Of a DNA stretch of 64,000 nucleotides, positions 12,151-62,560 are shown one piece after another. Position 1 is the first letter of the stretch, and each line of letters starts with the position of its first letter. Source of the stretch: Argopecten irradians. Lineage: Eukaryota; Mollusca; Bivalvia; Pectinida; Pectinidae. The notes beneath the pieces are model-generated. The model was not told the origin of the DNA. It ran no database searches and worked only from the letters and a program-made list of their open reading frames with translations. Made by a program: the position numbers and the translations under genes. The stretch spans positions 47,295,086-47,359,085 of the forward strand of contig NC_091135.1 in assembly GCF_041381155.1 (NCBI RefSeq). The letters run 5' to 3'.

Positions 12151-12173
12151 TTTGGGTACTATGCTGCCTGGCC

Positions 12174-12501
12174 ATTTGTCTGATAAGGGTGACAGTGCAC
12201 ACATCGTACTAGTCATTTGTCTGATGAAGGTGACAATGTACACATCGTACTAGTCATTTGTCTGATGAAGGTGACAGTGTACACATTGTACTTGTCATCT
12301 GTCTGATGAAGGTGAGAGTGTATACATCGTACTAGTCATCTGTCTCATGAAGGTTACAGTGTATACAATGAACTAGTCATCCGTCTGATGGAGGTGACAA
12401 TGTACACATCGTACTAGTTATCTCTCTGATTATGATGACAATGTTCACATCGTACTAGTCATTTATCTGATGAAGGTGACAGTGTTCACATCGCACTAGT
12501 C
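12174..12501. repeat. 41-bp minisatellite, 8 copies
   Basis: Eight head-to-tail copies of a 41-bp unit built on CATTTGTCTGATGAAGGTGA and ending CGTACTAGT. Copies differ by a few substitutions and show no length change. It lies directly between the Penelope-like fossil and the foldback-type element. Confidence 0.9.
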
Positions 12502-12541
12502 ATCGAAACGTCCTATGAAATTCGATGTTCATGTTACATTA

Positions 12542-12547
12542 CATAAC
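12542..12547. repeat. Target site duplication CATAAC, left copy
   Basis: CATAAC directly precedes the left inverted repeat of the element at 12548-14329. The same six bases directly follow its right end at 14330-14335. Confidence 0.75.
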
Positions 12548-12587
12548 TACGGCGGCGTATTAGGGCCACTATATAATTTAATTTATC

Positions 12588-13103
12588 TTGTACGTACAAG
12601 TTAGTATCTTGTACGTACAAGTTAGTATCTTGTACGTACAAGTTAGTATCTTGTACGTACAAGTTAGTATATTGTACGTACAAGTTAGTATCTTGTACGT
12701 ACAACTTAGTATCTTGTACGTACAAGATAGTATATTGTACGTACAAGTTAGTATCTTGTACGTACAACTTAGTATCTTGTACGTACAAGATAGTATCTTG
12801 TACGTACAACTTAGTATCTTGTACGTACAACTTAGTATCTTGTACGTACAAGTTAGTATCTTGTACGTACAAGATAGTATCTTGTACGTACAACTTAGTA
12901 TCTTGTACGTACAACTTAGTATCTTGTACGAACAAGTTAGTATCTTGTACGTACAAGTTAGTATCTTGTACGTACAACTTAGTATCTTGTACGTACAAGT
13001 TAGTATCTTGTACGTACAACTTAGTATCTTGTACGTACAACTTAGTATCTTGTACGTACAAGATAGTATCTTGTACGTACAAGTTACTATCTTGTACGTA
13101 CAA
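12588..13103. repeat. 21-bp palindromic satellite, left array (25 copies)
   Basis: TTGTACGTACAA, a perfect 12-bp palindrome, recurs every 21 bp from 12588 to 13092. It is joined by 9-bp linkers of three types: GTTAGTATC, CTTAGTATC and GATAGTATC. One copy has a single change (near 12922). Because 21 is a multiple of 3, all frames stay open and give spurious repeat proteins on both strands. Confidence 0.95.
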
Positions 13104-13939
13104 GATAGTATAATGTTGAAACTCTCGGTATTAAAGGCTGTGGCTGATTTACTGTCACCATGGTATCGCATGAAGCTATACGTATATTACGTACCCTTTG
13201 TATAAGCCAAAGGGAAAAAAGAATACCTTGCGACATGTTGTGGAGTTGTAATGCTGTGATAAGTTTCCGAACATATAGATGTAAATGTTTATAACAGAGT
13301 ATTAACTATGATCATCATTTTGACAATAATTGATGTGTGTATATATGTCTAATAAACACAAAAACATATATGAAATAATTTGTTTTGCTTTTGTTGTCTG
13401 TGCAATCAGTAAATCATTCGAATTAGGGCATAATGCCTAAAATTGTTTTCGGAGGCACTTAATTATTTTCAATACTACTATTCTGAAGTAAAATAAATGC
13501 TCAAACTTTTCCAATAATGGCACAAGTGTGAAGTATTTAACTTTTATTACTGAAGAAAATTATGAATTTGTTTGCTCCTCTTTTTAATAGATAAAACTTA
13601 TCATTCATCGGAGATGTATCATATCCATTTTATCACTAAATGTATCTTGTTATAAAACAAGCGACTATACAGTTTCCTCGGAAGGAACTATACAGTGTCA
13701 GTTTCAAAATAATGCAAGTGACTATACAGTTTCAACTCATAATCCGGCAATTTCATATTACGATTGTGAAAAAGATATTGTCCTCATTAATATATATCTA
13801 TATTTTTAATATTGTCAAATAAGTTTATAAACCTGTGATCGTACTTGAAGCAATGCAAATTAGACCGACTATCTTTAATTACGAAAAATATCAGGCGGGT
13901 GACTCAATTCTGCGGTGATGAACAGCAGTTCAACTCAAC

Positions 13940-14289
13940 TTGTATGTACAAAATACTAAGTTGTACGTACAAGATACTATCTTGTACGTACAAGATACTA
14001 TAAGTTGTACGTACAAGATAGTAACTTGTACGTACAAGATAGTAACTTGTACGTACAAGATACTATCTTGTACGTACAAGATACTAAGTTGTACGTACAA
14101 GATACTATGTTGTACGTACAAGATACTATCTTGTACGTACAAGATACTATCTTGTACGTACAAGATACTAAGTTGTACGTACAAGATACTAACTTGTACG
14201 TACAAGATACTAAGTTGTACGTACAAGATACTATCTTGTACGTACAAGATACTAACTTGTACGTACAAGATACTAACTTGTACGTACAA
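13940..14289. repeat. 21-bp palindromic satellite, right array (17 copies)
   Basis: The same palindrome and linkers as the left array, with linkers in the inverted orientation (GATACTAAC, GATACTAAG, GATACTATC). The first copy has one change (TTGTATGTACAA) and one linker is 2 bp longer. Confidence 0.95.
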
Positions 14290-14427
14290 GATAAATTAAA
14301 TTATATAGTGGCCCTAATACGCCGCCGTACATAACCACTTTTTAATAGATAGAATTAATCTTTGAACATTACATTACAGTAACTAATAAGACAAACAATT
14401 GAAAAGCTATCTTTGTTTTACAGAGAC

Positions 14428-17400
14428 ATGACCTCTGACACTGAAAAACCTCCGCCAGAGGTCATTCCCCTACAGTGTGATGACGGGAACAGCCACAAGG
14501 ACAGTGGCAGCAAGCGGGAAGTGTGGGCGAGAAAAACCGAATACATGTTGTCACTGATTGGCTACTCTGTGGGACTCGGAGTTCTCTGGAGGTTTCCTTA
14601 CTTATGCATGAGAAATGGAGGAGGTGAGTTAGCTTAAAAAAACGCACTATTTGTCTAAAAGAACAAGACAATTCCTGAAATACTAAAATTGGAATTTTAA
14701 AGAGGACGATGTACATTTAATTTAAAAACATGTGGATATAATGTGATAATACACATTTTCTTTTAGAAAATTATGAAAGTTTGAGTTAACGTAAGTTACA
14801 CAATGTCACATAGTCGTAGCAGGTTCAAGAAAGGAAAACGTCGTTTAAATAGCTCAGTTCTAATATTTTCAGCAATTATGTCGTGTTTCCTCTTTAACTG
14901 ACACAAACGTCGTTATATATAAGATAATTATGTATTTTTACAGGTGCATTTTTGATACCATTTTTCTTCTTTGTGGCCGTGTGTGGATTTCCCCTGTACT
15001 TTATGGAGCTGTGCCTGGGGCAATTCTCCGGTAAAAGTCCCCTGGTAGTCTGGTGCATCTGTCCTCTGTTTAAAGGTAGGCGGGCTGTTTGTGTAACTGA
15101 ATAATTATGACACTAAAATAGTGAGCCAAGGACATATGGCGTCATTTAATATTAAAAGACGACGTATCCTTTTTGTCCTACCAGCTTCAATTTCTAGGTT
15201 GTGATTGCTGATCCTAAGTTTTGCCACCAATTGTCGATATTCAAAATTTTGAGATAAAAGTAATATTCCTCTTTATAGTTTTGTTTAAGTTTACTATATA
15301 GAAAAAAAACCCACTTATTACTACAATCTATAAGCTGCATTTTGCTTGAGAAAATAATGTCAAATTTACAATGCATAGTTTTTTTTAAATGACCTTGTTA
15401 CTTTCTCTTTTAATGTCAAATGTGATGTTATTTTCGTTGATAATTTTTGATACGTATGAAATACATGAATATGATCCACTTTCATGAATGTTTTCATTGA
15501 CTTTCAAAATTTTACAAGATTATTCATGTTATCTGGTGATATTCTAGCCAAGTAACACAATGCTTGAGTATTAATGAAGCAGTCTAGTGTACACTGCCCT
15601 TATTCAACCCTGGAAACATCATTTACTGCACACTTTCCAACCCCAAGGGCCAATTTGCTAAAAAAACATATTTGTTCAAATGGCGTATTATCTATTATTT
15701 AAAATTCGTCAAATGTTGAATTATTCACCCGAATTTTTTTACTTGCATTCGCAATTTTACTGTAAAAATCAGCATACCATATTTCAGAATTATATGAATT
15801 ATATAAGATTGGTCTATACCATATTTCAGAATTTTATGAATTATATAAGATTGGTCTGACTAAAGAGTTATGCAACTTTTTCCAGAGCTATAAGAGCATA
15901 TCAGCTACTGTATTTTATTTAAATATTGCCTAATTGAGAACAAAACTTTCCACTTTTTACACTCAGTTACATGGATGTATGTATTTTGCAGTTTTAGAAT
16001 AATGTATTATATACACGTGTATTTACATATTTAATGTTTAATATTAAATGTAATTATTTGTATTGTGTGACAGGTTTAGGTGTGTGTATGGTGATCCTGT
16101 CCTTCATTGTGACGTGGTACTATAACCTAGTCGTGGCCTGGGTATTGTGTTACCTGTACTACTCATTCTATCCGACCCAGCCCTGGGCTTCCTGTGATAA
16201 TGAATGGAACTCTCCCAACTGTGTGGTCTTACGCTCCAACTCGCCAAGATCACTGACCAATCAAAGCATGTATAACAACTCAGCTACCAATGAAACAAGA
16301 GTCCTGAATCTGACCAATGAAATAGAATTCCTCAATGTTACCAATATATCCAATACGATACCAGAAAAATCTCAAGTCTCCCCAACAGCGGCTACAGAGT
16401 TCTGGAGGTAAGTATTCTCGGTAGTCCTTCATGTCATGAAGGTACATACATTAAAAGACTTTCTCAAAACATTTGGAGAATTGCTTTGAATTAAAATGGT
16501 TTTTTTATTTCTTGAGTTAGTTTTTTAATTAACCAGAGACACTTTGGTATTATTTATAAAAGTTATCGTTTTTGTCAATAACATTGCAATCATGAGTATT
16601 TTTTCTATCATTCAGACATGCTCCTGTTTATAGGATAATTGTTGCTATTGTTTTCATTTTTCATGTTTACAGGCACGCTATTCTGGGAATTTCTCCCGGA
16701 ATCGACCAGATCGGTGGACCACAATGGCACCTAGTACTGACCATCTTCTTGGCGGCAGCAATTACCTTCATGTGTCTAGTGAGAGGGGTGCGTTCGGCTG
16801 GAAAGGTATGTCAACAAGTCATCTAATCGTGTTTAAGCTCGAATGTAAACATTTTACTTTATACATTGTTTGTGGTTTGACTCCAAAATAGTTCTAGCAT
16901 ATGCTGCAATAATTAATAGCAATTTATGGTTTGGCGGTCTCTGTTTCGTTTAACAAATCGCATCTAGAGAAATTGAGGGTTTCGGCTGTGGATATCTACT
17001 GCTTAGTAATGCTTATTAGTACGCTTGTAAGATAATGTTTTAGTGATCTAATGAGTTTATTGCCCACCAGGTGGCGTACATTACGGCGGTTCTACCATAC
17101 GTCCTTCTTACAGTGTTACTGACACGAAGTTTAACATTAGAGGGATCCCTTGCCGGTATAATCTACTTCATAAAGCCAGACTTCTCCAAACTTCTCAACT
17201 TCCAGGTAAGCTTCATTTCACGGTGATTCAATACATGATGAAAATCAATATAAATGTAACATTTTAACACTGTCAATATTTTATCAACACAACAAAAGTA
17301 CTTTTCTTTCAAAATCTTAAATCAAATAGGTTGAAAATTAATGAAAGAAATTTTTATTCTATGTTTAAATCCGCGAATGTTAATCTTCGTTAATTTGTTT

Positions 17401-22986: not shown

Positions 22987-23656
22987 GAGAGATTACTCTA
23001 ATATGCAAATACAAATATATATATATATATATATATTTGATTTACCCGGATATTGTAAATGGATATAAAGGTATATGAAAATGGCTAGGCAACTCTATGT
23101 TACTTGTAGTTACCATAGTTGGGCAGATTTGTTGCTAGCTTCCTAAAATAATATTATTTGAAAGTCTCAAATTAATCATTGAGGACAGAGGCATTTTACT
23201 ACCAAATGTCACCCATCTCTAAAAAACCATTAACGCTCCTTTGTGAAAAATCGTAAAAAGTAAGTAATAAAGACATCATAAATGTAGATCAAATGATTGC
23301 AGGAATCCCTACCAACATCTTTAGTTTACAAAATTGAGGATTGTTTGTAAGAACTGCTTTTATGTCCTGGGAATTCATCTGTATTATCACAAAATGTTAA
23401 TATATCTATTACTCATTTTGCACCTTTCTTAATTTACTTTCCATTTTGTCACGGCATGCTTGTGACAAGGTATATGGTTGATTTGTAATAGGGCTTCTTT
23501 ATTCCTAATGCTGTGGAATTTTCGAACGTTGTTAAAACCTGACCAGATGAAAAGTTTTATTATGGAAAATTAATGATCTGGATTAAATATATGCATTTAT
23601 CACACTTTTGTCTTTGATATGAACGTTTTGCCCATGCGATACTGGTGCTGTCCGCG

Positions 23657-23790
23657 CCGTCATATCAACGCCCGGGCTGATATCACCTTATTACGTCATA
23701 ATTTGATATCAGCCCAGGCAGCCCGGGCTGATATCAGTTAATATCAGCCCGGGCTGATATCAGTTATCGGCCCGGGCTGATATCACGTCA
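23657..23790. repeat. Cluster of GCCCGGGCTGATATC palindromic repeats
   Basis: Five copies or part-copies of a palindromic unit centred on GCCCGGGC and bounded by GATATCA lie within 134 bp, locally GC-rich against an AT-rich background. It could be the remains of a hairpin element or a small satellite. Confidence 0.7.
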
Positions 23791-24442
23791 TCCGGGGTTT
23801 TCACTCCGGATTTTAGAGTTGCCGCTTCGATTCAGTTTCCTGCAGACGATAAGTTGGATATCGGATACAGTATTGAGAAAGATATCAGAAATCAGAAATA
23901 GTCTGTTTCATGACGATTTTACTGGAGATTTTTATCTTAACTAAGATACGGTCGAAATGAGTTTTGTCCACATTGCCGAAAACAAAGCATCGTAAATTAT
24001 ATTTATAACACAAAAAAACCGTATTTGGTATAAATAAAATCAACGACATGCGTTTGTCAACAAGAAGAGACGCAGGAATAAATTAGACGTTTAATAGTTT
24101 AATTTTCCCGTCGAATTCATAATTCTTGTCCGTTGTAAAACTGATCATTCTGAAATGGACCCGCTTTGCCGGAATTTGTTGAACATTATCTATTTTCAAG
24201 TGATAGTAAGCCTTCACTAGATATTTGTTAATTTTGCTTAAAATACATATTTCAACTCGTTCATTTAACCAGGAATTATGTATTTGTAAAACATATACAT
24301 GTAATGAAGTTTTCCACTGCTTCAACATTAAATTGGCCTTCATTATGTCCAGAAGAATATCGGTCATTGATCAATACGTTTTAATACATGTTTTAAAATT
24401 GTTAAAATATCTTTCCCTTTGTTTTCAAAATGTGTGATAAAA

Positions 24443-37733: not shown

Positions 37734-38551
37734 CAAGTGAGAATATAGATTTCTTACGCTAATGAAATATAACCAAATTGAAAACTTTTAAGTATATAGA
37801 GGTTTTTTTCTTTCTTTCTTTGACGTATTTGCATTCATTCGATTAATTCATTCTAACACATAATCGTCAGCGTTCCGTTTCAGAAAGGACGTCATTTTGC
37901 GGCAAAAATAACTGCCTTATCTGGTGTCATTGGTGACAAACGTCACAAACGTTAGCGAAACAGTGCAGAGAAAACGGTCGAATAAACATAGGCAAAGACA
38001 CGAACAATGGCCGCGTGTAATACTACACGTTTGTTAGAAAGTTTGCAAAATCAATTTTGTAGTCTTAAATCTAAACATGGAAAGATAAGCAAAATATTGA
38101 TATTACTATATTGCCTTCTAAAACGTCACTTAATATACCTGTCGGTTGGTTAGGTATTATGGTCTACTGGTTTTGCGTATTTCTTGAAAGTGAATATAAC
38201 AATATTGAAAACAAGAGGCCCATGGGCCTTAACGGTCATCTGACTCATGGCACAAAACAACAAAGTCACAGTATAAAGTATTGGTTAACGATTAATATAA
38301 ACAATACAAGGAACTCCTTAGTTGAATATATGCAAGTTTCTGAAAAAGGTAAATGTCATTTGTTGAACAAACTTGGTAGCCCTTCATCCAAATATGGTCG
38401 AAACCCATTCAAGGATTAATATAAGGAGTCAGATTTTAAAGCCATTTCAGCAAAGGTCCCATTTTGGACCTCGGTCATACTATCCCCATGGGTCTTACCT
38501 CGGTCCTTTATAAAATATGATTGTCCTTACCTAAAGTTCCCCCTTCTGAAT

Positions 38552-39123
38552 CAATTAAAACCACTATAGACCAATTTTCATTGAGATCGGAGACTGAAAC
38601 CTTAAAACAGGAAGTGGGCCAGCGGCCATCTTGGAATACCAAAATCTTTACGAAAATGTTTGCATGTTGTTCGGCATCAATTAAAACCCCTATAGACCAA
38701 TTTTCATTGAGATCGGAGACTGAAACCTTAAAACAGGAAGTGGGCTAGCGACCATCTTGGAATACCAAAATCTTTACGAAAATGTTTGCATGTTGTTCAG
38801 CATCAATTAAAACCCCTATAGACCATATTTTCATTGAGATCGGAGACTGAAACCTTAAAACAGGAAGTGGGCAAGCGGCCATCTTGGAATACCAAAATCT
38901 TTACGAAAATGTTTGCATGTTGTTCGGCATCAATTAAAACCCCTATAGACCAATTTTCATTGAGATCGGAGACTGAAACCTTAAAACAGGAAGTGGGCCA
39001 GCGGCCATCTTGGAATACCAAAATCTTTACGAAAATGTTTGCATGTTGTTCGGCATCAATTAAAACCCCTATAGACCAATTTTTATTGAGATCGGAGACT
39101 GAAACCTTAAAACAGGAAGTGAG
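38552..39123. repeat. 126-bp tandem array, about 4.5 copies
   Basis: Unit starts recur at 38552, 38678, 38804, 38931 and 39057, spaced 126-127 bp. Copies are nearly identical, so expansion was recent or copies are being homogenised. Each unit contains GAGATCGGAGACTGAAACCT. Confidence 0.92.
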
Positions 39124-39127
39124 CCAG

Positions 39128-40775
39128 CTAAAATTAAGAAAATTTGCCCTTTTGGGGCCCCACCCCTCAGTTCCTAGGGTTCAGACCAGACTCATTTATA
39201 TAAAATATAATTGTGTTTCCCCAATGATGCTTCACACCAAATATGGATAAAATTCATCCAAGGATGGAGGAGGAGTAGGACTTTAAAGCTAAAATTAAGA
39301 AAATTTCCCCATTTGGGGCCCCACCCCTCAGCCCCTAGGGGTCGGACCAGGCTCATTTGTAATATGATTGTCCTTCCCCAATGATGTTTCACAACAAATA
39401 TGGATGAAATCCATCCAAGGATGAAGGAGGAGAAGGATTTTAAAGCTAAAATTAAGAAAATTTCCCCATTTGGGGCCCCACCCCTCAGCCCCTAGGGGTT
39501 GGACCACGCTCATTTACATCAAATATGATTATCCTTCCCCAATAATGTTTTACACTAAATATAGATGAAATCCATCCAAGGATGAAGGAGGAGTAGGATT
39601 TTAAAGCTAAAATTAAGAAAATTTGCCCTTTGGGGGCCCCCACCCCTCAGCCCCTAGGGGTTGGACCACGCTCATTTATATAAAATATGATTGTCCGTCC
39701 CAAATAATGTTTCACACCAAATATGGATGAAATCCATCCAAGGATGAAGGAGAAGTAGGATTTTAAAGCTAAAATTAAGAAAATTTGCCTTTTTGGGGCC
39801 CTACCTCTCAGCCCCTAGGGGTCGGACCAGGCTCATTTATATAAAAATATGTCCAATTGTCAATATGATGAAATCCCCCAATGAGTGTTTCTAAATTAGA
39901 AACACCAAATATGGGATATAAAAATCCATCCATAGGATGAAGTCCAAGATGAGGAGGAGTAGGTTTTTAAAGCTAAAATTAAGAAAATTTGCCCCTTTGA
40001 GGCCCCACCATTCAGCCCCTAGGGGTCGGACCAAGCTCATTTATATAAAATATGATTGTCCTTCATCAATAATGTTTCACACCAAATATGGATGAAATCC
40101 ATCCAAGGATGAAGGAGGAGTAGGATTTTAAAGCTAAAATAAGAAAATTTGCCCTTTTGGGGCCCCACCCCTCAGCCCCTAGGGGTCGGACCAGGCTCAT
40201 TTATATAAAATATGATTGTCCTTCCTCAATGATGTTTCAAACCAAATATGGATGAAATCCATCCAAGGATGAAGGAGGAGTAGGATTTTAAAGCTAAAAT
40301 TAAGAAAATTTGCCCTTTTGTGGCCCCGCCCCTCTGACCCTAGGGGTCGGACCAGGTTCATTTATATAAAATATGATTGTCCTTCCCTAATGAAGTTTCA
40401 CACCAAATATGGATGAAATCCATCCAAGGATGAAGGAGGAGTAGGATTTTAAAGCTAAAATTAAGAAAATTTGCCCTTTTGAGGCCCTGCCCCTCTGACC
40501 CTAGGGGTCGGACCAAGCTCATTTTATAAAATATGATTGTCCTTCCCCAATGAAGTTTCACACCAAATATGGATGAAATCCATCCAAGGATGAAGGAGGA
40601 GTAGGATTTTAAAGCTTAAAATAAGAAAATTTGCCCTTTTGGTGCCCCACCCCTCAGCCCCTAGGGGTCGGACCAGGCTCATTTATATAAAATATGATTG
40701 TCCTTCCCTAATGATGCTTCAAACCAAATATGGATGAAATCCATCAAAGGATGAAGGAGGAGAAGGCTTTTGTAT
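39128..40775. repeat. 160-bp tandem array, about 10 copies
   Basis: Units begin CTAAAATTAAGAAAATTT and recur at 39128, 39289, 39446, 39607, 39769, 39973, 40133, 40293, 40455 and 40615. Spacing is 157-162 bp, except one of 204 bp that holds an inserted stretch near 39880-39960. Each unit contains CCCCTAGGGGTCGGACCA. Confidence 0.92.
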
Positions 40776-41636: not shown

Positions 41637-44600
41637 TCACAATTTGGCCTCTGGTAGGAAAGGCTTGTCCCCCGACGGTCTCACATACAAATCCTGTTTC
41701 ATCACTTGTAACATGTCTCGATCTATACCGTTTGGTCCCAGCGCCTCTAGTGCCAGCTGTTTAGCTTTAGGTATCAAGTCTGGTAACTCTGCCATGGCAT
41801 CCACCAGAAAGAGTTCTTTAGCCTGGTCCGCGGTAACTCTTTTGCCGAATAACACAGCCTCTCTTATAGATTTCATAGCGAGAACCTTTTTACTGAAAAT
41901 GAGGAGAAAACAGTCGATGTATACGAATTCATAATACTTTCCTTAATTCCTTATTGATCCACATTTAGAGATGTGTTTTTAAGTTTAAACATATTTTATT
42001 GACATAAAATGACAAAAGGATAAGTCATTAAGTTTTACCAACTTATATGCGACTTCTCCTGAAATATAGAAAATATAAACATACATAAATGAATAGTCAC
42101 GTGATTACATGGAACAAAATAGTATGAATTCACATAAAACACCAAGAACATTAAACTAGTAAGAGAGAGGGAGAAAGATAGAGATTAGTCCCTACTATTA
42201 GTATTCGTGTGATACCATTATAATATATAAAACAAGCGATGAAAAATGGGAAAAAAAATCTTGACAACTTGTAATGATATAGGAAATAAGTAAGAGAGCG
42301 AAAAGAGAGAGGGGGGGGAGAGAGAGAGTGTGAAAGAGAGAGAGATAGAAAGAGAGAAAAAGATAGATGAAGAGAGAGAGAGTCGATCAATCAAATCTAC
42401 CCGTTCTTACCAGGAATTGCTGTACAGCTTTTGCAATTTTCATGTTATTAATGATTGAAATGTTAAGATCACCTTTGCATAGAATATCAATGTTAATGGC
42501 GCCTTCGTACCACGATAAATCAGTGTTGAGAAGTGCTCGATGATTGGCATACAAAGGGCAAACAATAAAGAAGTGATAGCTGTCCTCACAGGGATGTCCA
42601 CACTGACAATATGCAGAATCGGTAAGATTTGCTCTAAAAAGGTCATATTTTAGGGAACTTGCTCGGTTTCTTAGACGACAATGGAGGATATTAAGTTTTC
42701 TTGGTCCATATGTTGCAAAAGGAAAATTAAAGTTTGAATTTGTTTTCAGGGATTTCATCATATTGAGTTTAAAAGAATTTATGGAAGGAGAATTTCTAAT
42801 GTTATGGTCTAAAACATTCCAAAGATGTATAGTAGAGGGAAAAATGAACTTTGAGATAATTGTAACCGATAGTAGTGTTCTCTTATTTGATATGCATTTC
42901 GTAAGTTATAAGGGGTTAAATTACCAACATCATCAGGCAATATATCTATGAGGAAACTTGGTGCCATACCATGGACTATTGAATATAACATCGAAAGTTT
43001 ACGAGCTTCACGTCTCTTAGAAAGTGGCAGCCAACCCGTTTCGCGGTATAAAAACTCAGTTTTAGTAAAAACTGGAAGCCCTGTAACAATCCTTGCCGCT
43101 TCTAACTGAATATTTTCAAGTTTTAAAGAATTATTTACTCCGCAGTTGTCCCATACTTCACACGCATACTCAAGCAAAGGTCTTATATAAGTGAGATACA
43201 GTTTTTCCAAGTTATTTCTTTTTAGAATTAGTTTAAGTTTGCGTAGGGTTGCTATGTATTTAGTTACTTTACTTGTGATATATTATATATGGATATTCTA
43301 CTTACAGTCGTTAGTTATAATAACACCGAGGTGTTTGTGATTATTAGTAAAATGAATGGGAGTGTCATCAAAAGTAAGGGACGGGTTATACGGTAACTGA
43401 CGATTAGATATGACTAGAGCCTCTGTTTTAATGGGATTGAATTTCATCAACCAATCTTTCGACCAAATTTCTAGTTTCCTTAAGTCCGATTGTGCTTCGT
43501 TCTCGATTAGAAGTAAGTTCGAGGATGAGTAAGAGAGTGATGTATCATCTGCAAAAAGCCTAGTTAGAGAAGCAAGATTACAACAGATATCATTTATGTA
43601 TATCAGGAAAAACAAGGGTCCAAGTACAGAACCTTGAGGAACACCAGCAAGTATTGTTTTAAAAGAAGATAATGATTGTTTTACAAAAACCGCTTGTTTT
43701 CTGTTACTCAAGTAGTTACTTATCCATCGAAGAAGTTGACCTGATATACCGTAATTGTTCAGCTTATGTATGAGACCCTTATGCCATACCCTGTCGAAAG
43801 CCTTCGAAAAATCACAAAATATTAAAATGGAATGTTCATACTTTTCTAAGGAGGTAATTATTGAGTGGTAGATTTCAATAAGCTGATGTGAGGTAGAATG
43901 CATGGATAAAAATCCTGCCTGGTATTTATAGATTAAGTCATTATCAATCATGAAATTATAGATGTATTTATATACTACACGCTCAAATAATTTACCTATA
44001 CAGCTTAGAAGAGATATTGGTCTGTAATTAGACACAATGCTGGGGTCATTAGATTTAAAAATAGGCATAACATGAGCAATTTTCCATGCGTCAGGATATA
44101 CACCAGACGAAAGGGAAAAATTAAATATCATAGACAGAGGCACACAAACTTCATTTGAGGCCAACTTCAACATTTTATGACTTATACCGTCAGGGCCTGA
44201 CGCTTTTTTAACATTTAATATATCTAAGATGTCTAAGATTTCACTGGGAGCAATATTTATTTCGGATAAAACAGAGCCAGTACGACTATCAAATAATGGT
44301 AAATCTTTATCTAATTCATTTGCCGGTAAGTTGGAAACAGAGCTAAAATAATTATTTAAAAGTTCACATTTACTGTCGTTATCATATATCATTTCGTTAG
44401 TGGTACAGTCCAATAACGGGGATATCTCTGTGTTCTTCTGTCCTTTAAGTATATTTCTAAGAAGTTTCCAATATATCTTGGGATTGTTATTGTTATTATC
44501 TATCACTGTATCGATATTATCGTAGAAAATTTCTTTTGCCCTTTTTATCATGTTATTCACTTTATTTCTCATATGCTTATAATTACTCCTATTTCGATCT

Positions 44601-47600
44601 GTCCTATGGTTAAAAAATATTTTTTTAAGTCTATCTCTTTTTCTCATATAGAGTCTGAGGAGGCTATTCATCCACGGTTTGTCTGTATCTCTGACCAGAA
44701 TTTCTCTGCAAAGAATACATTTACTTATAGCATCAAGAAATGTTTCAGTAAAAAAACTACACATTTGATTAACATTTGGCATATTGTTCAAAATATCAAA
44801 CCACGGGATACTGCTTAATATGGTCTTTAGTTCCTCAACATTAGCATGCTCGTACTGCCACACCTTTCTTTTATAAAAGTGGTTAACTTTTACTGGAATT
44901 TTAATTATTACAATTGCTGCATCATGGTCACTAACTGCTCGCTCAATATTAATAACATCAGAAAAAAATGACATCAACCAAATCACTAACTATAAACGGA
45001 TCAAGAAGTGTGGAAGAAGTAGCAGACTGCCTGGTAGACTCGGTAATTACATTTAATAAATTATAATTTGTCAGAATATAACCTAAATCACCTCTGACAT
45101 TTACAGAAAAATCAACATTTAAATCGCCTGTGATAATTACATATGAAGTTTCTTCAAATGCAGCATCAATCGAATATCGCAGATGCTGCCACAGGTCAGT
45201 ACTATCATTACTAGGGGGTCTGTATAAGTTGCAAATTAGATAGAGAATATTTTTGCATTTTAACTGTAACCATATTAATTCAGTGTTATCAGATTCAAGG
45301 TCGAGTCTTCGCTTGGCGAAAAGGGATTCCGAGATATACATAGCGACACCGCCACCAAACATATTTCTATCCTTTCGAAAAGGTTCAGAGAAACCATCTA
45401 TTCGGATGTCAGAATTTGGAATAGAGTCATCAAGGTGTGTTTCCGTAACACATAAAATATCAATATCGTCTACCAATGAATTCAAATAATTCACTTTATT
45501 CCGCAGACTGCGGATATTCAAATTTAGGATACTCAGAGCACTAGCAGATAAACTGCTATCAGAGTCAGGACCTGGATTTGGATGAATATCCCCAGCTATT
45601 AGTAAAATAATTGCTAACGAATTATATGGATTAAGAATGAAGTGGGACAACTGCAGAAGCAAAACATATATTAAATGGACACAAATGAGTTTGGAAAGAA
45701 ACATTTTGAAAATATTCGGAAGATTTTTCTTAAAAACAAAGGTGATTGATATGCAAGATATTTTACAATAGAAACATCCGATGGCAGCCCTCCATGCACA
45801 TACATCGTTACCTGTCATGGGGGTTGAAAAATAAAGACGGTTAATGTGAATAGGAGGTCTACCAGCGGTAATATGATTGCGCATCTTGTAAGGTGGGTTG
45901 AATCGTAAAGACAGAAGAGAAAAGGAAGTAAAGTGAAACGAAAGGGAAACATTTGAAAAACAAGGCAGAGTACATAGCACGGACAGGTTACAAGAAGTAG
46001 AAGAAATGGAACTCTTCAGTGGTGAAACATGGATAATCTCTGATTGGATAGAAGCAAGGTGTGGTGGGTAAATATATAAATTATATGGACATATATTTGA
46101 ATCCTTCATTCATGTTATAAACACAGATACATGCATATATGATATAATATAAATAAATATATAACTATATTGAGTTGAAATTCACATACATGGACTAAGC
46201 ATAGATACATGTATATAAGGTCGTGCGGTACAGTGGTACGATATATTTGGTTTACTTATAGATCAATAAAATAGAAAAGGATGATATAGATATAAAGCTA
46301 AGTTGAGTTGGAATCCAACTTCGTGTAGTGAACATAGATTCATGTATATATGCAGAGTACAGGTACGATTTATTCAGCTGACTTATTCATTTATGATTAT
46401 AAAATATATACAAGTGAATATTATATTGTAATTCATCTACATATATACATGTACACCGTAATTGAACATACGGTACAGTGGTATGGTATATTCAGTTTAG
46501 AGATGTGTCATGTCCAAAGTAAACTTCCTGCGCAGTCACTTAGCTTAAAATTGATATGATGGGCAGTCTACATTCTACCACGTGCACTAGCCCTTCACCT
46601 CCTGAGTTCAATGTAAAAGAGTGAGTTGCAAGGCACCGGTTATAGATTTTTTTTTGATACACTGCCCTTTTCCTCCAATATAAGAATTTGTCACGCCCAA
46701 AATGACCCCAGAGAGTTGTTTGTAGGCGTAAACATAAACAAACGAAACTGACTTTATATCTGGAGATACTCAGGTATAATTAGTATGACATTGGATATGA
46801 ACATAGATGGAATAAACTCTGACACCTTGGTGAATATTGAATGACGATATTTGGTAATTTAAGATACCGGGTATGTATGGAAAATACCAAACTATAATGA
46901 AAACTCTTGCAAAATTCTGCACGAGATTTATTATTTGAAGGCACAGAAGATTTCGTAATAGTTTAGTATTTTCCACACACAGACTATCTTAAATTTCCAA
47001 TTTACCTAGTCTCTTATCAATTCAAGTGGCTTTATTACACTCAAACAGACACATGTAACCAATAAACTAATAAAATACAATAAGAAAATATAATACAATG
47101 TTGTAACTTTGTACATATATACATCATCCCACAATCATATTGATTACTGATATAACAAACATATAATCAATTCTTACATAGAAAAAAACACTTATAATCA
47201 AAACGAGACCGCGAGACAAGTGGTCTAAGCAAAGCTATAGTCCAGTAAAAATACGAAAAATAGAGGCCAAACCTCCAAATAATTGCAACAGAATTTGTTT
47301 TCTGGTTTTTGGGTTGGAGAATCTTGGTATTTTACCATGAAAAAAGTCGCAAAAAATCATATGTTCGGAAAGTCTTTTTTTTAACACCCAAAATATAAGA
47401 AAATATAAAGAAATCACACTTTTTACCACTTTAAAAGTACAATATCTGCTATTTTTACAATATTTGAAATATGAAATCGGGTATATAGTAAGACAAACTT
47501 TAGGTTAATACAAATAAGTTGAAATGATACAATAATTTCAGTCAATCCAAGAAATAAAGAAGGATGAAAACGGCTCAAAACCTTTTAAATTTAGCTAGCA

Positions 47601-50600
47601 TTACCATTTTTGTTCTTTTTAGATGCAAACATTTATAATATAATACCCTGAACAATATAAGTTGATATTCTATGTCTTAAAGAATTACTTTTTCTTTGAT
47701 ATTAATGCATGATCGATAAGTGTTTTTATACTTAAATTTTTCGCAAAACACCTATTAGGGTAGCTAATATTTCGGAAAATAAAAAACCAAATGCTTCCAA
47801 ATATGTTATATCCTTTTTTGTGTTTTTGTACTTGTTATTTTGATCATTTGTTGTAAAAACGGTATACATATGGACATCTTATTTGGTACTCAAAACTTCC
47901 TATCACGTTAATTTGGCTGAATACCAAAATATGTCTAAGTCCATAAATCTGCAATACAAAAATCTTAATTTTTCGAATATGCTTTATTCGTTTGTCATAA
48001 AATTTTGCCAGTAAATAAATCAGAACTGTGATGATTTTCAGCTATAAAATTGAAAATGAGCTCTTCTTTATTTCCTTTATCTCATTGAAAATTGTGTAAC
48101 CCCCATCCGGTTCCATTATGGAAAAATAAAAAATTGACCTATTCAAATATTTGATCAAAAAGAAACTTCAATCTCACTTTATGAAAAACGCTCCATTATG
48201 GTGGTAATATCTGCCAAAGGATTTTTCAATCTGATAAGTCACAAAATAGAAATTCACATTTTTGATATTTCAACCTAAGGACTGAAATATAAAGAAGTTT
48301 ACTCAAATTGGCACTAAATGAGAATTTGATCGACCTCACGTTCTTTTATATTTGTGGATATTTTGATATAGTTGTCTCTTTTAGGTGAGAATAGCCTACA
48401 TAGAATCTGAATTAAAAACTATCTAAACACTTGAGACGGTACTTACTGAATAATTCTTGAATAAAAGACACATTATTCAATTTGGACTTAAAAAAATCAT
48501 TGGAAAAGGCCAAAAGACTAACTTTGAGCAACCATGTTATCTCACATAGGTAGTGAAAGTAAAATGTTTTTACTTTTAAATCCTTTAATCAACAAGTTTT
48601 ATTTTAAAAGATTCCACCAAAATAAGTATCAATGGTATTGTTGATAATATATCTGCCAAAGGATTTTTCAATCTGATAAGTCACAAAATAGAAATTCACA
48701 TTTTTGATATTTCAACCTAAGGACTGAAATATAAAGAAGTTTACTCAAATTGGCACTAAATGAGAATTTGATCGACCTCACGTTCTTTTATATTTGTGGA
48801 TATTTTGATATAGTTGTCTCTTTTAGGTGAGAATAGCCTACATAGAATCTGAATTAAAAACTATCTAAACACTTGAGACGGTACTTACTGAATAATTCTT
48901 GAATAAAAGACACATTATTCAATTTGGACTTAAAAAAATCATTGGAAAAGGCCAAAAGACTAACTTTGAGCAACCATGTTATCTCAGGTAGTGAAAGTAA
49001 AATGTTTTACTTTTAAATCCTTTAATCAACAAGTTTTATTTTAAAAGATTCCACCAAAATAAGTATCAATGGTATTGTTGATAATAACAAATTTTTATCC
49101 TAACATTCCAACAAAAGCATATTTGGCTGTTACAAGGACATAATTATGCAATTTTCTTGTTGTCACACTTTTCCCCTGTGTTGATTTCAATTTATGGTTT
49201 TGGCATTCTGTGCTATCCTTATAACGTTCTTGCCATTACAGTAGATTTTCTAGTATCTCGTGATAAACCATGTAAGTTTATATTTGGCTTCAAAGTTCGC
49301 AAATTATGCAAATATCCCTATTTTTTTCTGATTTTTGGGGATCAAGAAAAAAAAACATTTTCCCAAACTTTTATATGTGGCTACTTTTTCCTTGTATAAA
49401 ACAAAGTCAGATCTGTATGAAAAACACACAGAAAAAATTCTGTTGCAATTATTTTTGGGTAACACCCTATCTTTACTGGACTACTAGCATTTAAAAGAAA
49501 TACGAAACTATCTAAAATTGAATTTACGACTAATGAAAATAAAACATATCGTCATTCAATATTCTCCAAGGTATCAGAGTTTACTTAACGCGTTTAATAT
49601 TTTGACGTAATTATACCAAAAGTATATTCACCTGAGTAGGTCCAGGAGCATATCCCCTAAACGTAACTTGAGGTGAGTCTCGTTCCACGAAATCCAGCCC
49701 CGGTCCGCCCTCATCACTCTGTAGTCATGTGACATCGCCAGGAAGGCACCGCCCGCGAAAGCATGACCTGTTACCATGGTAACAGAGGTAGTATTATTGG
49801 TTATTGGGAACAATGGATTTCGTTTTACAGTTACAGTGTGATTTATATAGTACCGACGGAGTAAAACTAAGGGAAGTAACTCTGATATATATTTGAGGAA
49901 GACCTCCATTGTATGGTGACACACGATCAATGCACTATATTTACGTGTTTTGGCATAATAAACAACCAACTGATTATTGTGACACCATGACTACCAGGCG
50001 GGAAATGTCTTCAACCAAAACAAAATTGTGTTATTTTTTTATAATTATCATTATGTACAACGGAAGCCTGTTAGGGTCACATTGAAAAAAAATATTATGT
50101 CGTTATAACGACTTAGTATGTCGTAATAAGTATGTCGTAATAACGACTAAGTTATGTCGTAATAACGACATAGTATTTCGTAATTACGACTTAGTTATGT
50201 CGTAATATACGACATAAGGTATCACGTAAGAACTGACATAGTTCGTGGTTAAGACAGATAGGTATGTCGTAATATATCGACCTCACGCTATAGATAGTAT
50301 CTCGTAATAACGGCTTAGTACATTTGTATGTCGTAATAACGACTTAGTTATGTCGTAATATCACATAGTATTTCGTTATAACGACTAAGCTATGTCGTAA
50401 TAACGGCTTAGTATGTCGTAATGACGACTTAGATATGTCGTTTAAACGACTTACCTATATCGTAATAACGACTTAGCTATTAGTATTTCGTAATAACGAC
50501 TGAGTACATTTGTATGTTGTAATAACGACTTAGCTATGTCGTTATTACGAGATACTATGTCGTTATCACGATATAGCTAAGTCGTTATTACGACGTAGTT

Positions 50601-52237
50601 AAGTTGTTATTACGAGATACTAAGTCGTTATCACGAGATACCATGTCGTTATTACGACATACTAAGTCGTAATTACTACATAGTTAAGTCGTTATTACGA
50701 GATACTAAGTCGTTATCACGACATAGCTAAGTCGTTATTACGACATAACTAAGTCGTTATTACGACATAGTTAACTACGAGATACTAAGTCGTTATTATA
50801 CAATTATCGACCTATTTTCGGGTGGATACTGTGAGTTATCAATCCGAGTAAGTTATATATCCCGAGGCCGGAGGCCAGTAATCTTGCGTGCTTTTCGCCG
50901 CCCATTTCGGGGTTGATATCGCAGTTGATGAATACTTCTGAGAAGCGTATCGGCCAATCAAAAGACAGCAAAAACACCAGTCCTATAACAATATACAATT
51001 ATCGACCTTTTTTAGGTGGATACGGTGAATTATCAACCCAAGTAAGTGATATATCCCGAGGCCAGAGGTTCAATAAAGACTTTACTACAATAAACAGGAT
51101 GATACCTGCAAATGTTCTCTTCACAAAAGTAGTTTATCCATTACACGTAGTATATGGTATTATGGTAATTATCCAAATGCTTTCTAGCTACTGTTTTCAG
51201 ATTGGTAGAATCGGAATATTTCATCGCTGCATCAACTGCCCGTCTGGGCATTTATGAACGTATTTCCATAAATTGAAGTTCGCAGTTGATCACCGTTGAT
51301 CGCAGTAAACTTGCTGCCTTCCGCTTATATCTGTTTCCGACTATAATAATGACGTCACATAGATTATCCCGATGACATTGAATAGGGAAACTTCCGTTAC
51401 GCTATAATATGGGTACGAATCGACGTCAAAAGTGATTATGACGTCACATTTAAAGGGAGTTTCCCTCGATTTATTTTTGACACAGGTTTACTGGACTCGC
51501 TAGAGGTATCTGGACTGAGTCCAGTAACCTGAATGCGTGCTTTTTCGTGTCGCCGATTTCTTTTCGGGGTTAATTTATCGCAGTTGATGAATACTTTCTG
51601 AGAAACGTATGGGCCAATCAAAATACAGCAAAAACACCAGCCATATAATAATATGTCGTTATTTTATTAACGACATAACTAGTCGTTATTAAGGACATAA
51701 ACTAAGTCGTTATTGCGACATACTAAGTCGTCGTTATAACGACAAAATATTTTTCTTTAATGTGACCCTTGACAGGCTTTCGTAATTTTCTCTTAAAACG
51801 TGCAACACATATCTTTATTTTTTATTTTTTTTTTTTTATTGTTTTTGAAATTTTTTGATTTTTTTTTTGCTCCAAGTTTCTAATTTTTATGAATAGAAAC
51901 TTTAACATTTGATTCATAAAACTCCTAAAATTGAAATATTGACGTTAAATTCCTTATTAGATATTTGATGTGGTAATTTTGATAAATTGGGTTTGGACTC
52001 GGTACCTGTGTTAATGACTACCCCACCCCTCACCCTCTATTCTCTATGCTTACCGTTGATAGCCGCGATCGTTGGGAGGGGGTAATGCATCACCCTCCAC
52101 ATGATATTTTCGAGTGCCTTCTGGAAACTTGAGGATTGTTTCGCCATCCTGTAGAGGCATCCACTCTAGATCGATGCCATTTTACTGTAAAAACTTCCCT
52201 CTCTGTCGTTATCATCATGGCCTTACAGTCTTTATTT
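41637..52237 (-). CDS. Enoyl-CoA delta-isomerase-like (crotonase fold), 3' exons; frame disturbed
   Basis: Three minus-strand exons are clear: 52237-52054, 49767-49632 and 41892-41637. The phases join exactly (1 then 2). The product belongs to the crotonase superfamily and is closest to peroxisomal delta3,delta2-enoyl-CoA isomerases, which shift double bonds during beta-oxidation of unsaturated fatty acids. Visible signs are an ALENIMWRVMHYPLPTIAAI block, the oxyanion-hole stretch GHAFAGGAFLAM, and SHDYRVMRADRGWISWNETH, whose Glu aligns with the catalytic position. The C-terminus is AKL, a peroxisomal PTS1 signal. Exon 52237-52054 does not stay in one frame. It reads KAMMITTEREVF in one frame, NGIDLEWMPLQDGETILKF in the next, and FQKALENIMWRV in the third; the changes fall at short T and A runs. 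The gene is either a decayed copy or the sequence has indel errors here. The N-terminal exons are not recognised and may lie beyond the right edge. Its introns carry four or more mobile elements. Confidence 0.8.
42140..42385. repeat. Purine-rich (GA)n microsatellite at LINE 3' end
   Basis: Long AGAG/GGGAG runs directly after the 3' end of the minus-strand LINE ORF (on that strand, CTCTCT). Such tails are often LINE 3' simple repeats. Confidence 0.8.
42387..42761 (-). pseudogene. LINE C-terminal Cys/His domain
   Basis: A 124-residue open segment with LHCRLRNRASSLKYDLFRAN followed by CQCGHPCEDSYHFFIVCPLY. This is a zinc-binding-type pattern seen at the end of many CR1/Jockey ORFs. It is shifted by frame from the segment at 43210-42809. 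A related but diverged version occurs in the SLC6 intron insertion. Confidence 0.75.
42809..44986 (-). pseudogene. LINE reverse transcriptase ORF
   Basis: Open from 44986 to 43298 (562 residues), then continuing in the same frame past two stops from 43210 to 42809. RT landmarks are KKASGPDGISHKMLK, SNYRPISLLSC, QAGF, FCDFSKAFDRVWHKGL, GVPQGSVLGPLFFLIYIND and the active-site FADDTSLSY. LEYACEVWDNC lies in the following 'thumb' region. It provides reverse transcription for target-primed insertion. The FADD in place of the more usual YADD is found in this LINE group. Confidence 0.88.
44958..46109 (-). pseudogene. LINE endonuclease ORF with 2A-like motif
   Basis: 383 residues. Residues about 140-172 are strongly hydrophobic, followed by GDIHPNPGP (173-181, near 45593-45567), a 2A-like ribosome-skipping motif with His-Pro where classical 2A has Glu-x. 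Then comes an exonuclease/endonuclease/phosphatase fold: LNLNIRSLRNK, CVTETHLDDSI, GGGVAMYI, NLYRPPSN, and ITGDLNVDF with the catalytic Asp and Asn. The N-terminal methionine is uncertain, and the first 100 residues look low in coding quality. The reading frame passes to the RT frame through a shift near 44970. Confidence 0.8.
46131..46510 (-). repeat. Degenerate tandem units upstream of the LINE
   Basis: Three or four diverged copies of a roughly 120-130-bp unit containing CATAGATACATGTATATA and GGTACAGTGGTACGATATAT. It lies at the 5' side of the minus-strand LINE, where some LINEs carry repeated promoter monomers. Whether it belongs to the element is inference. Confidence 0.4.
47238..49487. 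mobile_element. 2.25-kb non-coding element with inverted ends
   Basis: The left end reads TAGTCCAGTAAAAATACG and later AAATAATTGCAACAGAATTT. The right end, inverted, reads TAGTCCAGTAAAGATAGG and AAATAATTGCAACAGAATTT. Thus about 60 bp at each end are inverted copies with some indels. CTA flanks both sides and could be a 3-bp target duplication. The interior is AT-rich, has no transposase, and contains a 442-bp tandem duplication. It is probably a non-autonomous DNA transposon in an intron of the isomerase-like gene. Confidence 0.6.
48211..49085. repeat. Recent 442-bp tandem duplication
   Basis: CTGCCAAAGGATTTTTCAAT starts one copy at 48211 and the next at 48653. The copies (48211-48652 and 48653-about 49085) differ only in a few small indels, such as CTCACATAGG against CTCAGG and one T in a T-run. 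Confidence 0.92.
50064..51779. mobile_element. Foldback-type element 2 with palindromic repeat arrays
   Basis: The left end AAGCCTGTTAGGGTCACATT is matched at the right by the inverted AATGTGACCCTTGACAGGCTT, followed inward on both sides by an A-rich stretch and GTCGTTATAACGAC. A left array (about 50096-50800) has some 30 copies of a GTCGTAATAACGAC-type palindrome with about 21-22-bp spacing. A short right array (51650-51745) has the same palindromes. The middle (about 50800-51650) has two diverged direct copies of a segment containing CGCAGTTGATGAATACTT and GCCAATCAAAA. There is no coding gene. The architecture matches element 1, but the sequences are unrelated. A target duplication was not clear. 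Confidence 0.8.
50096..50800. repeat. GTCGTWATWACGAC palindrome array
   Basis: Runs of 14-bp palindromes (GTCGTAATAACGAC, GTCGTTATTACGAC and variants such as TTCGTAATTACGA and CTCGTAATAACG) joined by 7-8-bp linkers such as TTAGTTAT and ATAGTAT. Copies are less uniform than in element 1. The orientation of the linkers changes near 50530, so the array is itself a large inverted repeat. Confidence 0.88.
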
Positions 52238-59276: not shown

Positions 59277-60729
59277 TTAGTCCTTGAAATTGAAGGAGTT
59301 GGTGTGTAAATTATCATATTTTTGTAAAAATTCTTCAAAAGAGTAAATATTTATGTTTATTTGATCTTTCAGAAGATCAGCAATTGTGTGAACTTCTAAT
59401 CTATACCAAGCCCTGTAGAAAACGGGTTTACCACCAACAGTTATATTTTTGTTATGCCAGATACTTTCTGTTAAAAAGGATTTATTTTGTAAATCTTCAA
59501 CTTCTTTGGAACTGTTCACTTTATACCAGGCTTTAAAAGTATCTTTCCAAAAATCATTTGTACAAAGGTTAATACATCTTAAAATATATTCACCACCAAC
59601 ATTTAATAGTAAATCAAAATCAATGTCTTCCTTTAAAATAGATTTCCATTTCCCTTCGCAGGTGTATAATCTCCTGATCCAACCTAATTTAAGGGAATTA
59701 ATAAAAGCATTTAAATTCACCATTTTCAAGCCACCATTAAAATATTCTTGAACGATATTAGCTCTTTTAACTTTGTCTGTTTTACCATCCCATAAAAATT
59801 CAAATAAAATTGTATTTATTTCTTTTATAACCTTTTCACTTGGGTTGGGAAGAGATATGAATAAGTGGTTAAATTGAGAAATCATTAGTGATTTTATGAT
59901 ATGAACTTTACCAATAGGAGTCAGTTTCCTTTTTTTCCAGGTGCTAATCAGACTTTTCAGTTTAACAATTTTTTGTCAAAATTTAGTTTTGGTATATTAT
60001 CCAGATTTATATCAAAGTCAATACCAAGTAGCGTAAATTTAGTTTTTCTCCAATTAAAATTGAATTCCGGAAGCATCCTTTCGTTACTGTATTTCATACT
60101 ACCAATCCAAATTATTTCAGTTTTGTCTACATTCATTTTTAGACCAGATATTTTTTGGAAAGAAGTTAGTTCTGTTAGAGTCTCACGAAGTGATTTCTCA
60201 GACCCATCTAATGTGAGAAAGGTATCATCAGCATATTGTGATGTGAGAATATCAAAGTTCTCTGTTATGATTCCATTTATATTCAAATTTTTTCTTAGTC
60301 GAATTGATAATACTTCTGCAGAAAGAATAAAAATATAGGGAGCTATTGGGTCACCTTGACGACAAGATCGTTTTATATCGAAAAATTGAGAAAGATTTCC
60401 ACCTTGATTAATTGCAGATGTAACATTGTTATGTAGAGTATTAAACCATCTTAAAATATCACTACCAAAGCCAAAAAAACTTAGAACTTTCCGAATGCAA
60501 TTCCAAGACACGGAGTCGAATGCTTTTTCAAAATCGATCATTAGAATCATACCAGGAATATATCATTATCTTCAGTGAATTTCATAATATCATACAGTAG
60601 ACGTGTATTTTCACCAATATATCTCCCAGATAAAAACCCAGTTTGATCGTGACTTATAAGTTTATCTAAAACACTTTCCATTCTGTAAGAGATCACCCCA
60701 GAGGCAATTTTATATGTGATATTCAGCAA
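59277..60729 (-). pseudogene. L1/Tx1 LINE reverse transcriptase and thumb segments
   Basis: Three open segments in successive frames. 60729-60547 has ITYKIASGVISYRM and HDQTGFLSGRYI. 60550-59957 has MIDFEKAFDSVSW, CRQGDPIAPYIFILSAE and the catalytic QYADDT. 59885-59277 has FLWDGKTDKVKRANIVQEY and GGLKMVNLNAF. Order and motifs are those of an L1-type RT. Frame breaks near 60545 and 59965 fall beside short homopolymers. Confidence 0.85.
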
Positions 60730-60947
60730 AGAGATTGGACGCCAATTTTTTCAAAAAATGTCTTGGTTTATCACCTTTTGGTATGCATGTAATATTTCCT
60801 TGCCGCTGGGTTACTGATAATTCTTCCTTTGAAAAACCAAAATTTAAAGATCGAACTACAAATTTACCAATTTTGTTCCAAATTTTTTTTAAAAAACTCT
60901 ACTGTGAAACCATCTGATCCTGGACTTTTGTTATTCTTCATGTTTTT

Positions 60948-61460
60948 TTAAAAATAGCTTGCTTCTCTGAGAGTGATCTCTCCTTCTAGAGACTGTGACT
61001 CTGACTCTGTAAGTTTTGGTAGATCAGGGAAATTTAGGTAATTATCTAGATCAACATTATTTATATGTTTGTTCTCTTTATAGAGATTTTCATAAAACTG
61101 TTTGGTATTTTCCAAGATGTCTACTTGTTTATCTATTACTGTTCCATCTTCTTTTTGTATTTTGGGAATTATTTTAGAAACAAAGTTTCTATTTTCTAAG
61201 TTTAAAAAGTATCTGGTAGGTTTTTCTCCCTCTTCCTCCCACTTAACTTTATATCTTATCACACTACCTTTTAATTCATATGACCGAATAGCTTCTAATT
61301 CTTTCTTTATTTCTTCTATTTCTAAAATATTAGCATCTTCACTGTTTTCTAAATCTTGTATGGTCTGTATCAGTTTATTTTCTTTTAAATTTCTTTTGGT
61401 TTTTTTATGGGAAGAGAAGGAGATAGTTTTGCCTCTAATGTTCATTAACAGAGTTTCCAA
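60948..61460 (-). pseudogene. L1/Tx1 LINE linker region
   Basis: 170 residues between endonuclease and RT, Lys/Glu-rich and partly coiled coil, with KVKWEEEGEKPTRYFLNLE, a block conserved in L1/Tx1 elements. Sequence between 60947 and 60730 continues the RT (KNNKSPGSDGFTVEFFKK) through further frame changes. Confidence 0.8.
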
Positions 61461-61501
61461 GAATAATTGTTCATCTATATTAAACTGTAAAATTGAATAT
61501 T

Positions 61502-62542
61502 CTATGTCATCAATAGCATTTTGATTGTAATAACCTTATTAATCAATTGAACATATTCTGTATCATAAAGAAGAGAGTTATTGAACTTCCAAAGACCCCT
61601 TCCTCTTTTAAATTCATTAAATTTCAATACTAACTTTACAATACAGTGATCTGATCTGTAACTAGGTTCTACAGAAGAGGAGGTGACAAAAGATAACAAA
61701 CCTTCACTTACCAAAAAATAACCAAATCTTGATTGTTTCAGAGGGTTTAATTTTCTCCATGTATATCTTTTTTGGTTTGGATGGTATTCCCTGAAAATAT
61801 CTATCAGATTGTCTTCATCAATTATATTTAATACCTTATCTCGAACTTGTGGATTGTTCACAGTTTTATATGTCTTATCGTAATCAAGGTGAGGATTGAG
61901 AACCAGATTAAAATCTCCACAAATAATAGACATTATATTTCCAAATTCATCAAGTGTTTCTGATATAGTGTTATAGAAATAAGGTTCATCTTTATTTGGT
62001 CCATATACTGTTATCAGAGTCATACTTACAGAGTCAATTTCTATCTCTAACGCTAAAAAGTTTCCAGTATGATCCTTCTTAATTTTCTTAAACTTAAATT
62101 CAAAATTGTTGTTAAAAAGAATGGCGACACCTCTGGCATTGGATTTGTAAGAATTGAAAAAACATTCATAACCCCATTCAGACCTTATCTGATTTTCTAA
62201 ATCTACAGTAAAATGTGTGTCTTGGATACAAAAGATATTGTGATTTTTACTTTTAAGGTATGAAAATATGTCTTTTCTTTTCGTAAAGTCACCTAGGCCC
62301 TGACAGTTTACAGATAATATAGTGATATTACTAATCCGTAAATCTGAAAATGTATTCCACATCTCAAGGGTAAAGGTAAGAAGTTGAGGAAGAGAAAAAG
62401 AGAAAAAGAGACAGAAAGATTCTGGATGACAGATCATGAACAAAAAATATAGACAGACATGATTAGAACATATATAGAGAGTAACAATGAAAACATTCAC
62501 ATTAAAAACGAACATTAGAACTGACATACCAGTGTTGCACAT
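61502..62542 (-). pseudogene. L1/Tx1 LINE endonuclease
   Basis: 346 residues; the true start is probably the Met near 62365 (MWNTFSDLRISNITILSVNC), with non-coding sequence before it. Apurinic endonuclease landmarks are LSVNCQGLGD, CIQDTHFT (Glu to Asp in the usual QETH motif), TVYGPNKDEP, CGDFNLVLNP and SDHCIV near the C-terminus. It would nick the target DNA for reverse transcription. Confidence 0.82.
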
Positions 62543-62560
62543 GGTGTTCCATTGTTTCAG

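Follow-up and report, generated by a model that had tools for sequence, protein, structure and literature searches.

Genomic context

The principal feature of this locus is a repeat-rich element of 1782 bp (element 1), which lies upstream of a gene of the SLC6 type, with 98 bp between the element and the candidate start codon at position 14428. Within the stretch of DNA analysed (64,000 nt; hereafter the window), this gene is recognised by matches to Pfam SNF in three ORFs, two of them passing the cut-off and one falling short of it, and a likely splice acceptor, located by eye, directly precedes the codon at 14428. On the opposite side, eight copies of a 41 bp tandem repeat (12173–12504) end 43 bp before the element. 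A second, decayed element of 1726 bp (element 2; 50059–51784) is found 36 kb from the first. The window also contains adjacent tandem arrays of 126 and 161 bp units at 38550–40771, perhaps, as a guess, of Helentron type, and the remnants of two LINE-type retrotransposons, with ORFs at 43298–46109 and 59277–62560; within these, reverse transcriptase domains fall at 43298–44986 and 59960–60562, and an endonuclease domain at 61505–62560. The components of elements 1 and 2 are compiled in Table 1.

Table 1. Window coordinates of the components of elements 1 and 2
Feature	Positions	Strand	
Left TSD, CATAAC	12542–12547	.	
Element 1, left terminal segment TACGGCGGCGTATTAGGGCCAC and AT-rich spacer, 40 bp	12548–12587	+	
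Element 1, left array, 25 × 21 bp units, core TTGTACGTACAA and polar linker, mostly [GC][TA]TAGTATC	12588–13112	+	
Element 1, middle domain	13113–13939	.	
Element 1, right array, 17 inverted units	13940–14289	-	
Element 1, right terminal segment, same sequence as left	14290–14329	-	
Right TSD, CATAAC	14330–14335	.	
Element 2, left terminal segment AACGGAAGCCTGTTAGGGTCAC and AT-rich spacer	50059–50099	+	
Element 2, left array, core TCGT....ACGA and linker CTTAGTAT and variants	50100–50540	+	
Element 2, right array, inner part, inverted	50541–50795	-	
Element 2, non-array segment within right arm, internal duplications	50796–51656	.	
Element 2, right array, outer units	51657–51742	-	
Element 2, right terminal segment TACGAAAGCCTGTCAAGGGTCAC	51743–51784	-	

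Structure and variation of element 1

A preliminary description of this DNA had placed a foldback-type mobile element at 12548–14329, and these limits are borne out by a search with the end 21-mer, which, with up to three mismatches allowed, matches the window only at 12548 (+) and 14329 (-), and gives no match in 100 shuffles. The same description gave the inverted ends as exact over 53 bp; their exact identity stands, but the length does not, as the identical run continues for 95 bp, with the outermost 40 bp preceding the first core at either end. The CATAAC duplication that it reported is present at both flanks and forms a 6 bp target-site duplication (TSD). From base composition, the chance of such a 6 bp match is 0.0004, a frequency also seen among flank 6-mer pairs near the element when the arrays are left out (119 of 278,880 match), whilst a looser sample that includes array sequence gives 0.004 (224 of 51,686).

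Inside these ends are arrays of units built on TTGTACGTACAA, with 25 units in the left arm and 17 inverted units in the right, just as had been counted beforehand. The exact 12-mer core is retained in 40 of the 42 units, against an expectation of 0.01. Spacing between units within an arm is 21 bp, or approximately two turns of B-DNA, in 39 of 40 intervals and 23 bp in the other, and the two arms can pair over 325 nt with 96 % complementarity. It had further been suggested that the arrays vary only in the linker, and this is very nearly so, the exception being a core substitution in one unit of each arm; the innermost right unit has the changed core TTGTACATACAA. When the last unit of each arm and the unit before the 23 bp interval are dropped (leaving 39 of 42), off-consensus positions number 1 of 468 in the core and 30 of 351 in the linker. 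The corresponding Fisher value of 8e-11 is inflated by the kinship of the units, because these are duplicates of one another; counted by site, four of nine linker positions are variable against none of 12 in the core (p = 0.02).

Linker variants are confined to four positions, namely 13 (G/C), 14 (T/A), 17 (G/C) and 21 (C/A/T). Beyond the first two linkers their order differs between the arms, and therefore the arrays have changed separately whilst the ends stayed identical. At positions 13, 14 and 17 of the units in both arrays, the variants are complement swaps only, which short inversions or copying within hairpins could cause.

Comparison of the middle domain with the rest of the window gave no long match and just two weak ones, 20 and 29 bp in length. 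It contains nine stop-to-stop ORFs of at least 35 aa, and a transposase domain is absent from the four that were scanned. One of these four has a weak, sub-cut-off match to HEAT_ULK4, which was considered as a coding remnant and taken as chance. Rfam returned no families at gathering thresholds, and ARAGORN, run with the bacterial code, returned no tRNAs.

With its long inverted arms, internal tandem repeats and non-coding middle, element 1 has the architecture of a foldback element, and it is very probably mobile. The earlier view of it as a foldback-type mobile element is well founded, with support from its ends, from the duplication and from the decayed relative of like plan in the window. 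Could it instead be no transposon but part of the SLC6 gene of the host, as a regulatory or hairpin-RNA element? Its proximity to the candidate start codon, and the folding to be expected of an RNA copied from its inverted arms, would suit such a role; however, exact inverted ends set within a 6 bp direct duplication, together with a relative of similar plan 36 kb away, make this proposal barely credible.

Superfamily placement

Although the preliminary description could assign no family, its foldback designation is retained here and can be narrowed. In the excerpts of the literature used, TA..TA termini are given as invariable for complete IS3EU families and a 6 bp TSD as usual, whilst GingerRoot elements have 6 bp TSDs and termini that are mostly TA..TA (PMC10045372); fungal IS3EU families are described with a 6 bp TSD, terminal inverted repeats (TIRs) of >30 bp and ends of the form TAYGG..CCRTA (PMC12730594). 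Element 1 shares all of these features, having a 6 bp TSD, TACGG..CCGTA termini and a 95 bp TIR, of which 40 bp lie outside the arrays, the TAYGG rule being one that is drawn from fungal families. In two respects it differs from IS3EU: no transposase was found in its scanned ORFs, and its arms hold long palindromic arrays, a feature that goes unmentioned for IS3EU in the excerpts of PMC10045372, PMC12730594, PMC8268682 and PMC10853768. Literature term searches, with Repbase entries outside their scope, likewise found no IS3EU foldback with palindromic arrays. A transposase is absent from all the ORFs scanned (four in the middle of element 1, two in element 2 and 14 others in the window), and the superfamily therefore rests on five terminal bases and one TSD. 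On the strength of these ends and this TSD, element 1 probably belongs to IS3EU/GingerRoot, as a provisional placement.

Helitrons and Helentrons are not known to have TIRs or a TSD, and the presence of both in element 1 does not fit that identity. Polinton termini begin with AG, as opposed to the TA of element 1, and no Polinton gene occurs among the 20 selected window ORFs that were scanned. Whilst the 6 bp TSD is one that Polintons share (excerpts of PMC10045372), derivation from this or another element with a TSD of that length is thus a remote prospect. With regard to the Mutator superfamily (MULE/Phantom), the arms with their internal tandem repeats and the non-coding middle are what one would look for in a Mutator foldback, and most foldbacks seem to be Mutator (excerpts of PMC4079207). 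The closest comparison is with Tetris and DAIBAM, suggested Mutator elements, which similarly comprise a terminal flanking domain, a tandem-repeat domain and a non-coding middle; however, these elements have units of ~220 bp and a TSD of 8–10 bp (excerpts of PMC4079207), in contrast to the 6 bp of element 1, the TA..TA termini of which fit IS3EU. A Mutator origin is consequently held to be highly improbable.

A diverged relative in the same window

The left end of element 2, AACGGAAGCCTGTTAGGGTCAC, and its right end, TACGAAAGCCTGTCAAGGGTCAC, form an imperfect inverted repeat. Aligned without gaps, the left end agrees with that of element 1 at 16 of 22 positions, making it the best other match in the window, whilst the right end agrees at 14 of 22 with one base skipped. 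This similarity emerged from comparison anchored at the ends, and local alignment of the same ends without an anchor did not recover it; as a control for the choice of anchoring, an anchored scan was made of 127,956 window positions, in which only the two ends of element 1 exceed 16/22 and the next best are four positions at 14. Three exact copies of TTAGGGYCAC were found, at both ends of element 1 and at the left end of element 2; taken by itself, with one mismatch allowed, this motif shows no enrichment in the window (4 found versus 4.66 expected).

Similarity between the two elements extends to their arrays. Units of element 2 are mostly 21–22 bp, with some shorter or longer, and carry the linker CTTAGTAT[G/C] or variants of it. 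The linker consensus is common to both elements at eight of nine bases, or at all nine when the TATC variant is used, and the consensus units as a whole agree in register at 15 of 21 bases (p ~0.002 against nulls of shuffled units and of random units with palindromic cores). Polarity of the linker is opposed between the arms of each element, with no exception among the patterns counted: in element 1 the left arm has 24 forward and no reverse linkers and the right arm none forward and 14 reverse, and in element 2 the corresponding counts are 6/0 and 0/6. The first core is also found at a similar distance from the end, at 40 bp in element 1 and 41–42 bp in element 2.

In other respects the second element differs from the first. 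Its arm lengths differ from those of element 1, there is no TSD in register (ATGTAC on one side and ATTTTC on the other), and its termini, AACGG on the left and TACGA on the right, conform only in part to the TA..TA and TAYGG rules. The segment at 50796–51656, inside its right arm, contains two duplicated blocks of 81 % and 88 % identity and is perhaps a nested repeat. A scan for palindrome richness in 500 bp bins flagged element 1 and an array at 23 kb, and missed element 2, the dyads of which are imperfect. The array at 23 kb (23640–23800) is a third, short one, built on another palindrome, TGATATCAGCCCGGGCTGATATCA, with approximately five whole or partial units and no TTAGGGYCAC end nearby.

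Paired changes in the core

For comparison between the elements, the core was treated as six base pairs, and 39 units of element 1 were set against 27 of element 2, the latter set leaving out the outermost right unit (TCGTTATAACGA) and including two degenerate units. At pairs 1, 3 and 4 the commonest pair is the same in both elements. Pair 2 is T–A in 39/39 units of element 1 and C–G in 24/27 of element 2, whilst pair 6 is C–G in 39/39 and A–T in 24/27, respectively. By contrast, pair 5, which is A–T in 38 of the 39 units of element 1, is mostly A–A in element 2 (16/27), where only four of the 27 cores are perfect 12 bp palindromes, and this tells against a paired pattern. The outermost unit at either end of element 2 is the perfect palindrome TCGTTATAACGA, in which pair 5 is also altered on both sides. 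Pairs 2 and 6 have changed on both sides with pairing kept, a pattern that, with two elements compared, is suggestive and not proof. Together with the IS3EU-type signature, this relative with a changed dyad is what the present analysis adds to the preliminary description.

These observations bear on the view that element 1 is a transposon with passive arrays, in which slippage during replication, unequal exchange and inter-arm copying multiplied a short palindromic segment of the end, the palindromes being by-products of hairpin-prone DNA. Such a process would account for the repeats and for the strong single-strand folding of the units (z = -6.2 and -3.5, compared with +0.7 for one middle-domain control), and it sits well with excerpted reports that satellites can be seeded by foldback repeats, as for Tetris (PMC4079207), and that in the oyster many satellites have links to mobile elements (PMC8268682). 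Neutral amplification does not, however, explain why a near-invariant core adjoins a variable linker, nor why two core pairs are altered on both sides between the elements with pairing kept; moreover, a general palindrome-perfecting process should repair the linker too, and yet most units, in either element, keep an asymmetric linker. Passive arrays are accordingly regarded as possible, if doubtful.

Proposed role of the arrays

The preferred reading takes element 1 to be a cut-and-paste transposon of IS3EU/GingerRoot type, foldback-shaped and non-autonomous, with arms that are arrays of binding sites for a dimeric protein; for this joint statement we estimate a probability of about 0.5. Considered separately, a binding-site role for the arrays, already raised for a dimeric protein in the preliminary description, is a prediction that is plausible and somewhat favoured by indirect support from the pattern of the repeats. 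Under the preferred reading, element 1 would be moved by an integrase-like DDE transposase acting in trans, with the outer ~22 bp (TACGG...TTAGGGYCAC) serving as the end for cleavage and strand transfer and the cut falling at TACGG. The 21 bp units would then each offer a site to a DNA-binding domain acting as a dimer, the simplest candidate being the domain of the transposase itself, and a spacing of about two helical turns would align these sites along the same side of the helix. Inverted between the arms, the arrays could load many transposase molecules per arm, raise their local density and so aid synapsis of the ends. The nearest precedent that has been tested is Galileo, the THAP domain of which binds its own TIR, and in the long TIRs further sites were identified within the tandem repeats; for Foldback and Phantom elements, a binding-site role of such repeats was stated in 2013 to be untested (excerpts of PMC3688188).

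A further, conjectural and on balance unlikely, extension of this mechanism would have the core act as a swappable address, in that the cutting ends and the linker in its 21 bp frame are conserved whilst the palindromic core differs between lineages by symmetrical changes that track the dimeric DNA-binding domain of the transposase. If this were true, the arrays of a non-autonomous lineage would display dozens of operator copies for a hijacked transposase, and the lineage could escape or switch its driver by conversion of the arrays to a new core. As element 1 offers short and exact dyads set in helical phase, and the dyad differs in element 2, one binding assay would answer the question of binding for the family. 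Were the preferred reading correct, foldback architecture would extend to IS3EU, and would be one source of dispersed palindromic satellites.

Searches beyond the window

Pattern scans of viral contigs and prokaryote genomes revealed no relatives, as expected for an animal element, the host being, by its gene content, probably an animal. The end 18-mer occurs in two viral contigs and one bacterial contig, in each case without the spaced linker array, and these matches were taken as chance because approximately that many are expected, by estimate, for an 18-mer. A spaced-linker pattern returned 58 viral stretches; in the ~105 bases of each that were inspected by eye, these consist of coding-like DNA or of other repeats, AT-rich or short in period, and none has the cores of elements 1 and 2. 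A pattern combining TIR and core returned five stretches, read as unrelated coding-like DNA. Three further patterns gave no matches. Text searches of the literature with the core, end and unit strings recovered unrelated papers only.

Comparison with other systems

Transposons with TIRs of the Sleeping Beauty and Bari type have few transposase sites per end, as against the 17–25 units in each arm of element 1. They are nevertheless alike in having repeated transposase sites within a bipartite TIR (excerpts of PMC3688188). Galileo, a Drosophila element of the P superfamily, resembles element 1 in its long, foldback-like TIRs and in a terminal segment of ~40 bp that is conserved between Galileo families; its TSD is, however, 7 or 8 bp, its tandem repeats are ~140 bp and present as a single copy in D. 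willistoni (excerpts of PMC4168063), and its sites are those of a THAP domain, in contrast to the arrays of 21 bp dyads in element 1. Amongst bivalves, the pearl/CvA elements of Helentron type are likewise small mobile elements with satellite-like arrays (excerpts of PMC11136912 and PMC5139131), but these have Helitron-type ends and a central array, whereas element 1 is bounded by TIRs and a TSD and has an inverted pair of arrays.

With regard to satellites, the excerpts of PMC8268682 assign CgiSat35 and CgiSat47 of the Pacific oyster to IS3EU, and describe the oyster satellite CgiSat43 as dispersed over all 10 chromosomes, with a 21 bp monomer of 66.7 % AT and without a Repbase match. In a comparison by length and composition only, where agreement may be coincidence, the consensus units of elements 1 and 2 are 21 bp and 66.7 % AT, as is the case for CgiSat43.
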